DNA from: Bacilli bacterium
Lineage (GTDB): Bacteria; Bacillota_I; Bacilli_A; RF39; UBA660
DNA length: 57,183 nucleotides
Direction: 5' to 3'
Assembly: GCA_017887425.1 (NCBI GenBank)
Contig: JAGHHZ010000004.1
Location: forward strand, 1-57,183
Every line of letters starts with the position of its first letter. Within the stretch, counting starts at the first letter, position 1. Shown piece after piece: positions 11,121-45,079 of the stretch. The notes under the pieces are model-generated. The model saw only the letters and a program-made list of their open reading frames with translations. It searched no databases and was not told the origin of the DNA. Made by a program: the position numbers and the translations under genes.

Positions 11121-11320
11121 ATTGAAAACGAGGAAGAGAAATAGTAATAAAATTAATTATTTATAGTGAGTTATCGGTTGGTGGAAGATAATGATAATAT
11201 TTTATGAACGCGTCTTGGAGTTTTAAAGCAGATCTGCTATAAAGATTAAAGTGTATAGGTTTCTATAAAATAAGGTGGTACCGCGATAATTCGTCCTTAT
11301 GTTATAGGGACTTTTTATTT
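11121..11320 (+). promoter_or_regulatory. T-box riboswitch, arginine specifier, controlling argS
   Basis: A stem I with GAGGAAGAG (start) and the apical GGTTGGTGG-type loop is followed by GAA-CGC, where CGC (11209-11211) is the Arg specifier codon. The same GAA-NNN layout holds at the aspS leader with GAC. The T-box AAGGTGGTACCGCG (11272-11285) carries the TGGT that pairs with the uncharged tRNA end. A terminator stem GTCCTTAT/ATAGGGAC (11293-11311) followed by TTTTTATTT completes the switch. Uncharged tRNA-Arg should stabilise the antiterminator and turn on argS. Confidence 0.92.
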
Positions 11321-41733: not shown

Positions 41734-41762
41734 CTATGGTATAATTTAAGTGGGTGGTTGAA

Positions 41763-42653
41763 TTGAAAGTTTTAAGTTTAAAAGAACCTTATGCTAGTTT
41801 AATAAAAGAAAAAAAGAAATTGATTGAAACAAGAAGTTTTAAAACTAATTATCGAGGAGAATTATATATTCATGCTAGTATTAATAAAAGTAAAATAGGT
41901 AGTAATCTTTTAGAATTGGTTGAAAACTTAGATTTAAATTGTGGATATATAATTTGTAGATGTAACTTAGTCGATTGTATTTATATGACTGAAGAATATG
42001 TCAATAATATGAAGAAAAATAATTATCAAGAATACATATGTGGGGAATATAAAGTAGGAAGATATGCTTGGATATTAGAGGATGTTGAAGAAATACAACC
42101 AATTAGAGCTAAAGGGAATCTTAATATATGGAACTATTATAATGAATTTGATGTTTTAGATTTAATGCAAGATATAAAAGATGGATGGTTAGATAAAAAT
42201 AATCATAAACATTTTTTAGATAATGATTTATTTTTAGATAATTATATGTTACAAACTCCTCAAGAAGTTTTGAAAAATGAAGTAGGAGTATGTTGGGATC
42301 AAGTAGAGCTTGAAAGATATTTACTTAAAAATAATGATTGGAATATAAAGACATATTTTATCGTTCATTATGATGATATATGTCCAACTCATACCTTTTT
42401 GACATTTAAAAAAAATAGTAATTACTATTGGTTAGAACATGCATGGGAAAAATTTAGAGGAATTCATGAATATAGTAGTTTAAATGAATTGTTAAATGAT
42501 GTTAAGAGTAAATTTATTGAATTTGAATTAAAAAGCAATTATCAAACAAATAAATTAATCATTTATGAATATAAAAAACCGAAATATCATATTTCAGTAG
42601 CAGAATTTTATAAACATTGTGAAAATGGTGATGTTGTTAATTTGGTTGACTAA
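41763..42653 (+). CDS. ASCH domain fused to transglutaminase-like domain
   Basis: TTG 41763 is chosen: it gives MKVLSLKEPYASLIKEKKKL, the standard ASCH start, with GGGTGG upstream. The 296-residue protein has two parts. Residues about 1-125 form an ASCH (RNA- or modified-nucleobase-binding beta barrel) domain: IETRSFKTNYRGELYIHAS and GRYAWILEDVEEIQPI. Residues about 150-296 resemble a transglutaminase-like cysteine protein: NEVGVCWDQVELERYLL supplies a Cys in a helix, THTFLTF the His, and WLEHAWEKFRG a following acidic position. The combination is unfamiliar. A nucleic-acid- or nucleotide-linked protease/acyltransferase is conceivable; function is not known. Confidence 0.6.
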   Translation: MKVLSLKEPYASLIKEKKKLIETRSFKTNYRGELYIHASINKSKIGSNLLELVENLDLNCGYIICRCNLVDCIYMTEEYVNNMKKNNYQEYICGEYKVGRYAWILEDVEEIQPIRAKGNLNIWNYYNEFDVLDLMQDIKDGWLDKNNHKHFLDNDLFLDNYMLQTPQEVLKNEVGVCWDQVELERYLLKNNDWNIKTYFIVHYDDICPTHTFLTFKKNSNYYWLEHAWEKFRGIHEYSSLNELLNDVKSKFIEFELKSNYQTNKLIIYEYKKPKYHISVAEFYKHCENGDVVNLVD

Positions 42654-43132: not shown

Positions 43133-43330
43133 ATATTATTTGTTTGAAGGAGTATATATAATAATTTAAATAGAGAGCTGATGGTTGGTGAAAATCAGTT
43201 AATAGTTATATAGAAGACATCAAACGTTAAATAACCGGGTAATTCCGTTAAAAATTAAAGTGCATAGATTCTATGAAATAAGGTGGTACCGCGATAATTC
43301 GTCCTTATGTTTATAGAATTTTTTTATTAG
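43133..43330 (+). promoter_or_regulatory. T-box riboswitch, aspartate specifier, controlling aspS
   Basis: Stem I carries GATGGTTGGTGAAAATC, followed by GAA-GAC in which GAC (43216-43218) is the Asp specifier. The T-box AAGGTGGTACCGCG lies at 43280-43293. The competing terminator uses ATTCTAT...ATAGAAT arms and ends in a T-run at about 43319-43325. The layout matches the argS leader at 11121, with a different codon. Confidence 0.92.
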
Positions 43331-43339
43331 GAGGATATT

Positions 43340-45079
43340 ATGAAAATAAACAATAATGGAAAATTTAATATTAAAAATGTTGATGAAGTTGTAACTTTAT
43401 ATGGCTGGGTAGCTAAAAAAAGAAATTTAGGTGGTCTAATTTTTATTGATTTAAGGGATCGTAGTGGTATAATTCAATTAGTAATTAAGCCAGAAAATAG
43501 CTGTTATAATTTAGCTGAAACTTTAAAAAACGAATATGTAATTAAGGTAGTCGGTAAAATAGCAGAAAGAGAAAGTAAAAATTTAAACTTAGCGACCGGT
43601 GAAATTGAAGTTATCGTCGATAATTTAGAAATTTTAAATACTAGTATCGATATTCCATTTAGTATTACTGATGACACAACTGCTTTAGAGGATACTCGTT
43701 TAAAATATCGTTATTTAGATTTAAGAAGAAGTGAATTGCAAAATAAAATGATTATGCGTCATAAAATTACTTTTGCTATTCGTGAATATTTAAATAAATT
43801 AGATTTTTTAGAAATTGAAACGCCTATTTTATGTAAAAGTACGCCTGAAGGTGCAAGAGACTATTTAGTTCCCTCAAGAATATTTAATGGTAAATTTTAT
43901 GCTTTACCACAATCACCACAAATTTTTAAACAATTATTAATGGTTGGTGGTATGGAAAGATACTTTCAAATTGCTAAATGTTTTCGTGATGAAGACCTAA
44001 GAGCAGATCGTCAACCAGAATTTACGCAAGTTGATATGGAAATGAGCTTTGTTGACGAAAATGATGTTATGACAACTGTCGAAGGTTTAATTGCTCATGT
44101 TTTTAAAGAAATTAAAAATATTGATATTGAATTACCTTTAAAAAGAATGAAATATGATGATGCGATTAACTATTATGGTTCTGATAAACCTGATTTAAGA
44201 TTCGATATGAAGATTAATGATATAACTGATATTTTTAAAGATACCGAATTTACAATATTTAAAGATAATATTAGTAATGGGGGAATTATTAATTGTTTAG
44301 TAGTTAAAAATAGTGCTGATAAATTTTCAAGGAAAGATTTAGATAAATTAACTGATTTTATTAAAACATATAATGCTAAAGGATTAGCTTATTTAAAGAT
44401 TGATAATGAGATTAGTGGTAGTATTGCTAAAGTTATTAAAGAAAATGAACTAAATGAGTTAAAAGATAAATTAAATTTAGAAAATAATGATTTAGTTTTA
44501 ATTATATCTGATAAGAAAAATGTAACTAAACAAGCGTTAGGTGCCTTAAGATTAAAATTAGGCCGCGATTTAAATTTAATTAGTAAAAATTATGAATTGT
44601 TATGGGTAGTTGATTTTCCATCTTTTGAATATAGTGAGGAAGAAAAAAGATATGTTGCTTGTCATCATCCTTTTACATCTCCTAAAGATAGTGATGTTGA
44701 TAAGTTATTAACTGATAAAGCTAATTGCTATTCAAAAGCTTATGATATTGTCATCAATGGTTATGAAGCTGGTGGGGGATCAATTAGAATTCATGATCAA
44801 GAAGTTCAAAATAAAATGTTTGAAGCATTAGAATTAACTGAGGAACAAATCAAAGAAAAATTTGGTTTCTTTGTCGAAGCTTTAAAATATGGAACTCCTC
44901 CTCATGGTGGTTTAGCTCTAGGCTTAGACCGATTAGTTATGTTATTAACGGATACTGATAATATTAGAGACGTTATTGCATTCCCTAAAACAGCTAGTGC
45001 TAATGATTTGATGAGTGAGTGTCCAAATGTTGTTGATGAAAAACAATTAAAAGAATTAGGAATTAAAATACAGAATTAA
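43340..45079 (+). CDS. aspS: Aspartyl-tRNA synthetase
   Basis: This 579-residue class II synthetase has an N-terminal OB anticodon-binding domain (VTLYGWVAKKRNLGGLIFID), the flipping loop and motif 2 (YFQIAKCFRDEDLRADRQPE), and FTQVDMEMSFV. A bacterial-type GAD insertion domain occupies about residues 290-400 (GIINCLVVKNSADKFSRKDL). Motif 3 is GGLALGLDRLVMLL, and the DVIAFPKTASANDLM end is typical. The GAD insert marks it as the bacterial type. GGAGG lies before the ATG, after the T-box terminator. Confidence 0.96.
   Translation: MKINNNGKFNIKNVDEVVTLYGWVAKKRNLGGLIFIDLRDRSGIIQLVIKPENSCYNLAETLKNEYVIKVVGKIAERESKNLNLATGEIEVIVDNLEILNTSIDIPFSITDDTTALEDTRLKYRYLDLRRSELQNKMIMRHKITFAIREYLNKLDFLEIETPILCKSTPEGARDYLVPSRIFNGKFYALPQSPQIFKQLLMVGGMERYFQIAKCFRDEDLRADRQPEFTQVDMEMSFVDENDVMTTVEGLIAHVFKEIKNIDIELPLKRMKYDDAINYYGSDKPDLRFDMKINDITDIFKDTEFTIFKDNISNGGIINCLVVKNSADKFSRKDLDKLTDFIKTYNAKGLAYLKIDNEISGSIAKVIKENELNELKDKLNLENNDLVLIISDKKNVTKQALGALRLKLGRDLNLISKNYELLWVVDFPSFEYSEEEKRYVACHHPFTSPKDSDVDKLLTDKANCYSKAYDIVINGYEAGGGSIRIHDQEVQNKMFEALELTEEQIKEKFGFFVEALKYGTPPHGGLALGLDRLVMLLTDTDNIRDVIAFPKTASANDLMSECPNVVDEKQLKELGIKIQN

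Follow-up and report, generated by a model that had tools for sequence, protein, structure and literature searches.

Introduction

What does a protein do that carries an ASCH domain and a cysteine enzyme of the transglutaminase or papain type on one chain, and is such a chain the product of a real gene? Both questions are raised by an open reading frame for 296 residues in a 57,183-nucleotide stretch of contig JAGHHZ010000004.1 (assembly GCA_017887425.1) from a Bacilli bacterium of the RF39/UBA660 lineage; the whole of this stretch is referred to below as the window. The original prediction, which was made from the letters of the DNA, proposed an N-terminal ASCH part followed by a transglutaminase-like core with a Cys-His-Asp triad and suggested that phage defence or nucleotide salvage might be its setting. 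No paper pairing "ASCH domain" with "transglutaminase" was found in a search that left most subscription papers outside its reach, and among the matches listed for ASCH together with vasohibin, none was by its title a paper on the domain. Papers cited here by PMC number are represented by the parts of their text that were available, and what is said of them applies to those parts.

Results

Domain content and predicted folds

The frame is open from either of two candidate starts, 41754 or 41763, through to 42653 (+), and because the TTG at 41763 lines up in the alignment with the ATG start of relatives, the start originally chosen is a sensible one (Table 1). Pfam places the ASCH domain (PF04266) at residues 4-82, with 24.5 bits against a cut-off of 21.2, and the PHROGs family phrog_3193, of unknown function, matches residues 1-130 (E 4e-28). 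When the catalytic half is scanned by itself, DUF553 (PF04473, "Transglutaminase-like domain") is the one Pfam family that attains its cut-off, with 21.1 bits against 20.5; with the whole protein as query the score falls below that value, to 18.0 bits. Relatives of this module lie on both sides of the same cut-off (L071, L065, L069, L115 and L120 above it, L049, L062 and L117 below; loci are cited by our L numbers), and the branch to which the window protein belongs differs further from DUF553 in having a C-terminal motif of its own, YxKPxxxxxxxFxxHCE. Almost no linker separates the two halves. A match of the C-terminal half to HVSL (PF09749) was weak, under cut-off, and was taken as chance; the fusion protein has no NCBIfam or PADLOC match at E up to 1.

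Table 1. Coordinates of the fusion gene, its two halves and the codons of the presumed catalytic residues in the window
Feature	Position	Strand	Basis or remark
Fusion gene, 296 aa	41763..42653	+	TTG start; stop included; alternative in-frame GTG at 41754
ASCH half, residues 1-125	41763..42137	+	Pfam PF04266; conservation; TRIP4 ASCH fold
Transglutaminase-like (DUF553 / CPR-C4 / vasohibin-like) cysteine enzyme half, residues 126-296	42138..42650	+	PF04473 on half alone; CPR-C4 and VASH1 folds
Presumed nucleophile, Cys177 codon (GVCWDQVE)	42291..42293	+	C in 44/44 distinct fusions
Presumed base, His210 codon (THTFL)	42390..42392	+	H in 44/44 distinct fusions
Presumed third triad residue, Glu225 codon (YWLEHAW)	42435..42437	+	E in 44/44 distinct fusions

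The final AlphaFold2 model, for which the alignment had been enlarged with phage ASCH sequences to 56 aligned sequences, reached a mean pLDDT of 95.1 and a pTM of 0.78; in an earlier model the ASCH half was poorly predicted, with block means of pLDDT of 43-89. Residues 1-125 of the final model match the TRIP4 ASCH at Z 13.0 (117 aligned residues, 3.3 A), with EOLA1 tied at Z 12.1. The likeness to the TRIP4/ASC-1-type domain, a PUA-like barrel which belongs to the same Pfam family, includes a profile match (E 3e-12) and a common E-x-R-S-(W/F)-x-T-x-x-R-G-x-L stretch; unlike that domain, the window ASCH is joined to a cysteine enzyme and has Lys17 in place of the GxKxxExR glycine. Some TRIP4 ASCH entries in the PDB contain dsDNA, according to their titles. 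For residues 117-296, the best match among solved folds is CPR-C4 (PDB 7ob6, 7ob7 and 7pjo; Z 12.0, 153 aligned, 3.3 A), and the tubulin carboxypeptidase VASH1 also matches (Z 10.7, 139 aligned, 3.3 A). LapG (Z 8.5) and NTAQ1 (Z 7.1-7.4) are weaker matches, and arylamine N-acetyltransferase folds score as well.

Both domains of the original prediction are thus recovered by profile and by fold, together with the motifs that it had quoted from the second half, and its reservation that this half might lack a transglutaminase fold is removed by the model. There, Cys177 opens helix 177-188, His210 lies on strand 209-217 and Glu225 ends strand 220-225, so that the predicted fold carries the Cys on a helix and the His and Glu on the strands that follow. 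A profile of the catalytic module (20 sequences) gave 0 matches to PDB sequences at E 1 or better, so that the enzyme may be a peptidase, an acyltransferase or a deamidase.

Predicted catalytic set and conserved ASCH residues

Conservation was assessed across 44 distinct fusion proteins of at least 280 aa, the window protein included, and the three presumed catalytic residues are invariant also in 25 of 25 aligned fusions. The Cys and the His of the predicted triad therefore stand, but its third member is Glu225, not Asp. In a wider survey of the module (96 distinct copies, gaps set aside), the Cys position holds C in 92 and S in 3 of 95, the His position H in 92 and Y in 1 of 93, and the acid position E in 90 and D in 3 of 93; the substitutions of Ser for Cys (L023, L053, L072) and of Tyr for His (L088) all lie outside the ASCH fusions. 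CPR-C4 uses Cys61, His93 and the carbonyl of Leu115, with Ser108 also near His93 (PMC9108980), and its Cys-His spacing of 32 compares with 33 in the window protein. Because Glu225 stands at His+15, as does Ser108 in CPR-C4, we infer that a classical Cys-His-Glu set takes the place of the Leu carbonyl arrangement here, the equivalence being one of spacing and not of superposition.

The ASCH half is the more basic of the two in 25 of 25 comparisons (pI 7.6-9.8 versus 5.1-8.6). The characteristic ASCH motif has the form GxKxxExR. In the window protein its Lys19, Glu22 and Arg24 are present and Lys17 replaces its Gly, which some relatives keep (e.g. L013); Lys19 is found in 43 of the 44 fusions, and Glu22 and Arg24 in every one. 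Strong conservation of this half (K19, E22, R24, K27, T28, Y30, R31, G32, H37, Y101, W103) becomes invariance across all 44 at E22, R24, T28, Y30, R31, G32, H37, Y101, W103 and W123. The available text of PMC5615036 gives the motif as GxKxxxxR and describes both nucleic acid binding and RNA cleavage for ZmASCH.

Recurrence among genomes, plasmids and phages

A search of genome contigs found the full fusion at 23 of 29 loci; 45 of 100 genomes (the window's own included) matched, five of them with the full fusion. Within the same family, one of uncultured gut bacteria, 280 of 386 genomes matched. Among the carriers that have a name are Candidatus Faecimonas and Candidatus Onthousia, of the class Bacilli. 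One of the near-full-length copies of this family, G731:C1, is broken by an in-frame TAG; the same genome has two further copies whose frames are open. The loci fetched hold 57 full-length fusion ORFs (at least 280 aa), which reduce to the 44 distinct proteins; four shorter two-domain ORFs (truncated, broken or deletion form) were left out of this set. The suspicion, voiced with the original prediction, that two genes had been fused by assembly error is ruled out by these 44 distinct full-length proteins and by the 37 near-full-length copies counted in 35 of the 386 family genomes, since the fusion recurs in independent assemblies. The 136-aa gene at L027:2814-3224 (+) joins ASCH residues 1-87 to the end portion of the cysteine module and resembles a fusion that has undergone an internal deletion.

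Of 392 genomes drawn from the phylum, 10 contain the catalytic module, seven from the same family (the window's own included) and three from two other families of the class. A plasmid search with the module half gave no match, and the whole-protein query returned 16 plasmid records and one phage record, all through the ASCH half only. Viral scans found the module without ASCH, in IMG/VR contigs whose lengths range from 10 to 435 kb (L060-L069), where it can form part of long proteins (937 aa in L060, 1079 aa in L067 and 1837 aa in L069); none of 80 viral loci with ASCH relatives carries the cysteine module within the stretch examined.

History of the pairing and selection on the two halves

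A single clade of ASCH halves was rejected with 24 fusions (p-AU 0.00018) and, at a far smaller p, with 29, a set to which L125 had been added after its oddness was seen; the main 21 ASCH halves as one clade were not rejected (p 0.065). The catalytic halves as one clade were likewise not rejected (p 0.43 and 0.485). Since the ASCH halves do not make up a single clade and the catalytic halves may, the two must have been brought together, or brought together again, on more than one occasion: at least two ASCH lineages have been paired with the module, whether through separate fusions or through swaps. In L125/L130, at the ffh locus, the ASCH half belongs to the other clade, sharing 72% identity with an ASCH-only protein, and the catalytic half attached to it shares 83% identity with its counterpart in L010; grouping of the L125 catalytic half with those of L021, L023 and L028 was not rejected (p 0.257), so that L125 does not have to represent a pairing of its own. 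At the same locus, a relative with no recombinase or Fic match in 12 kb (L131/L106) has an ASCH-only gene, and in L132, L136 and L139 ffh is separated from another ASCH gene by a serine-recombinase element, with the fusion to the left of the element and another ASCH to its right in L136 and L139. Swapping of ASCH halves at this locus looks real.

Interchangeable ASCH halves and promiscuous fusions could mean that the module has no functional link to ASCH. According to this explanation, a selfish, often-moving catalytic gene is joined to whatever lies ahead of it, and the fusion arises as a side effect of recombination at ASCH genes, serine-recombinase elements beside ffh included. The many unrelated partners of the module fit such a history, as do the ASCH-only gene at the ffh locus and the large serine recombinase that lies within 6 kb of 14 of the 44 fusions (a lower bound, several being on short contigs). 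We nevertheless regard it as unlikely. Purifying selection acts on the ASCH half and on the catalytic half alike in pairs that have diverged further: among 14 pairs, every half-comparison with dS of at least 0.1 gives dN/dS of at most 0.362, and the ASCH-half values of 0.57-0.63 in the three closest pairs (window-L002, L016-L017, L019-L020) come from changes too few to judge. Key residues are kept in 44 of 44 fusions, 25 of which, the window among them, have neither Fic nor recombinase nearby. The fusion also moves as a whole, since it stands before Fic in L014 and after recombinase and NERD genes in L012, so that an attachment site alone does not explain the junction; a serine-recombinase attachment site was rejected as the general cause of the junction on the same two grounds, the position after the element in L012 and the 25 fusions that lack both neighbours. 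Finally, ASCH is the commonest partner read, with 44 distinct fusions against at most six for any other, although the use of the fusion as query favoured it. The fusion is a real, recurrent and selected architecture, and a new combination of known superfamilies.

Other partners of the catalytic module

Pfam identifies GNAT partners on the N side of the module (L072, L071), on both sides (L070) and on the C side (L117), a NUDIX partner in L058 and LigD_N in L069, a phage contig. An Ala_racemase_N (YggS-like) domain accompanies the module in two genomes, at L115:2058-3236 (-) by Pfam and at L116:1229-2407 (+) by similarity. A further domain of about 185 aa lies C-terminal to the module in L049, L111-L114 and L118 (L049:2002-2559, L112:939-1502); Pfam gives nothing for it in L049 and L112, the two that were scanned. 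Because the module is joined to GNAT, NUDIX, YggS-like and LigD-phosphoesterase domains as well, it appears, as judged from these domain assignments, to be a general, re-usable amide-bond enzyme that has acquired several domains as partners or for targeting, ASCH among them.

Two further arrangements were noted. In one ORF, L110:1612-2577 (-), ASCH is fused to an NTP_transf_6 nucleotidyltransferase. A stand-alone cysteine module is found upstream of thrS in eight loci (L021 and L023-L029, between engA and thrS), in one of which, L023, the Cys is Ser.

GNAT, NUDIX, YggS-like and LigD phosphoesterase domains mostly act on CoA, nucleotides, PLP or nucleic-acid ends. Such company would suit an enzyme of small molecules or nucleosides, in which the catalytic half is an acyl or amide transferase or hydrolase, either like arylamine N-acetyltransferase or directed at an amide-linked nucleoside, and ASCH binds the nucleoside part. 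The neighbours of a few fusions point the same way: L129 is flanked by a NUDIX gene on one side and a nucleoside 2-deoxyribosyltransferase-like gene on the other, and in L015 and L022 an HD-type gene overlaps the fusion by 4 bases (22.7 and 21.4 bits, cut-off 22). An N-acetyltransferase with a Cys-His-Glu set in its entry title (4dmo) is among the fold matches, and YqfB has an ASCH fold and acts on N4-acylcytidine through Lys21, Thr24, Arg26 and Glu74 (PMC6972931). We consider this explanation rather unlikely, as the N-acetyltransferase folds match less well than CPR-C4 and the vasohibins and the supporting neighbourhoods are few among the 44 and not common to the fusions. In particular, an N4-acetylcytidine amidohydrolase of the YqfB type is disfavoured because the position of the Thr nucleophile (K-x-x-T-x-R), equated by motif spacing, is Glu22 in 44 of 44 fusions. 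Other tight neighbours are of the metallo-beta-lactamase type (L015), SDR (L124), radical SAM with LysR (L127) and PHP (L123); when a common pathway or context was sought among the YggS, HD, radical SAM, PHP, metallo-beta-lactamase, SDR and LysR partners or neighbours and the NUDIX and deoxyribosyltransferase-like neighbours, none was seen.

Gene neighbourhoods and the question of defence

In the window, the fusion gene is accompanied by an ABC/FtsX transporter upstream, a two-component system and a 74-aa ORF, after which comes aspS with its T-box. Against PADLOC, eight of ten neighbouring proteins had no match, and the remaining two, the ABC transporter pair, had short matches in their ATPase and permease parts. 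T-box leaders were recognised at 43136-43309 (+), where one precedes aspS (43340-45079), and at 11122-11301 (+), both above the Rfam gathering score.

The phage-defence setting that had been proposed is not supported by the window, where no defence island was seen among the ten neighbouring proteins scanned, and finds partial support among relatives, where a Fic gene lies within 3.5 kb of 15 of the 44 distinct fusions (a lower bound, several being on short contigs) and directly downstream of the fusion in eight distinct loci. The one Fic protein scanned, that of L014 (PF02661), matches the PADLOC candidate PDC-S04 (E 8e-100), and serine recombinase and NERD genes are nearby. From these surroundings one could argue that the fusion is a phage-defence or toxin-antitoxin effector of mobile elements that acts with the neighbouring Fic protein. 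We think this improbable: no Fic gene is near 29 of the 44 fusions (some on short contigs), the fusion itself is without a PADLOC match and the window neighbourhood is ordinary. The tree of catalytic halves includes nine of the 15 Fic-linked fusions, of which eight belong to a single supported clade, so that the link may have been inherited and not repeatedly selected.

Discussion

Which reading, then, best accounts for the fusion? We tentatively favour a cytosolic cysteine amidohydrolase or peptidase that is tethered to RNA or DNA by its ASCH domain, the chemistry and the target being predictions and the reading as a whole standing somewhat short of an even chance. Catalysis by the cysteine half is likely and tethering by ASCH is plausible. 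In the mechanism that we propose, the ASCH half would bind RNA or DNA, where it might recognise a particular base or structure, and so would hold the catalytic half close to nucleic acid. Cys177, activated by His210, which Glu225 would orient, could then attack an amide or peptide bond in a protein located on the nucleic acid, and the outcome would be either hydrolysis, by a peptidase or a deamidase, or acyl transfer to another amine.

The nearest solved relatives of the catalytic half make such chemistry conceivable: CPR-C4 is a demonstrated cysteine protease and the vasohibins are carboxypeptidases (PMC9108980). The resemblance is one of fold, as no sequence similarity to CPR-C4 and no sequence match between the vasohibins and the catalytic half were found. 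No ASCH domain is described for CPR-C4 in the available text, and VASH1/2 differ further in being eukaryotic, in acting with SVBP and in using another third residue (PMC9108980). DUF553 is named in a classification of papain-like proteinases, which also offers a precedent for joining a papain fold to GNAT in the DUF3335 proteins; these belong to another papain-like family and are without ASCH (PMC10318531). On the ASCH side, EVE/ASCH proteins occur in (PIN)-GNAT-EVE operons, and ASCH or EVE domains are joined to HTH, HsdS and nuclease parts, so that they too are fusions of readers of the PUA superfamily, although a papain-fold partner is not described in the accessible portion of that work (PMC7641849).

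A reader-eraser would combine the same two activities differently. In this scheme ASCH would read a modified base, one in phage DNA or tRNA for instance, that bears an amide- or amino-acid-linked group; the cysteine half would cut the amide bond on the spot and so strip the modification. The NUDIX and LigD phosphoesterase partners, the very large phage contigs and the link to mobile elements fit this idea, which we rate as very improbable.

Whether or not the favoured tethered cysteine enzyme proves to be the right description, a vasohibin/CPR-C4-like cysteine module that occurs in gut bacteria and in very large phage contigs has on more than one occasion become coupled to a domain of nucleic-acid-binding type, and several nucleotide-type enzymes are also among its partners. 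Should the cysteine enzyme indeed be steered by ASCH, the fusion would represent a nucleic-acid-targeted peptidase or amidase, an activity that could be tested with a single protein of 296 aa.
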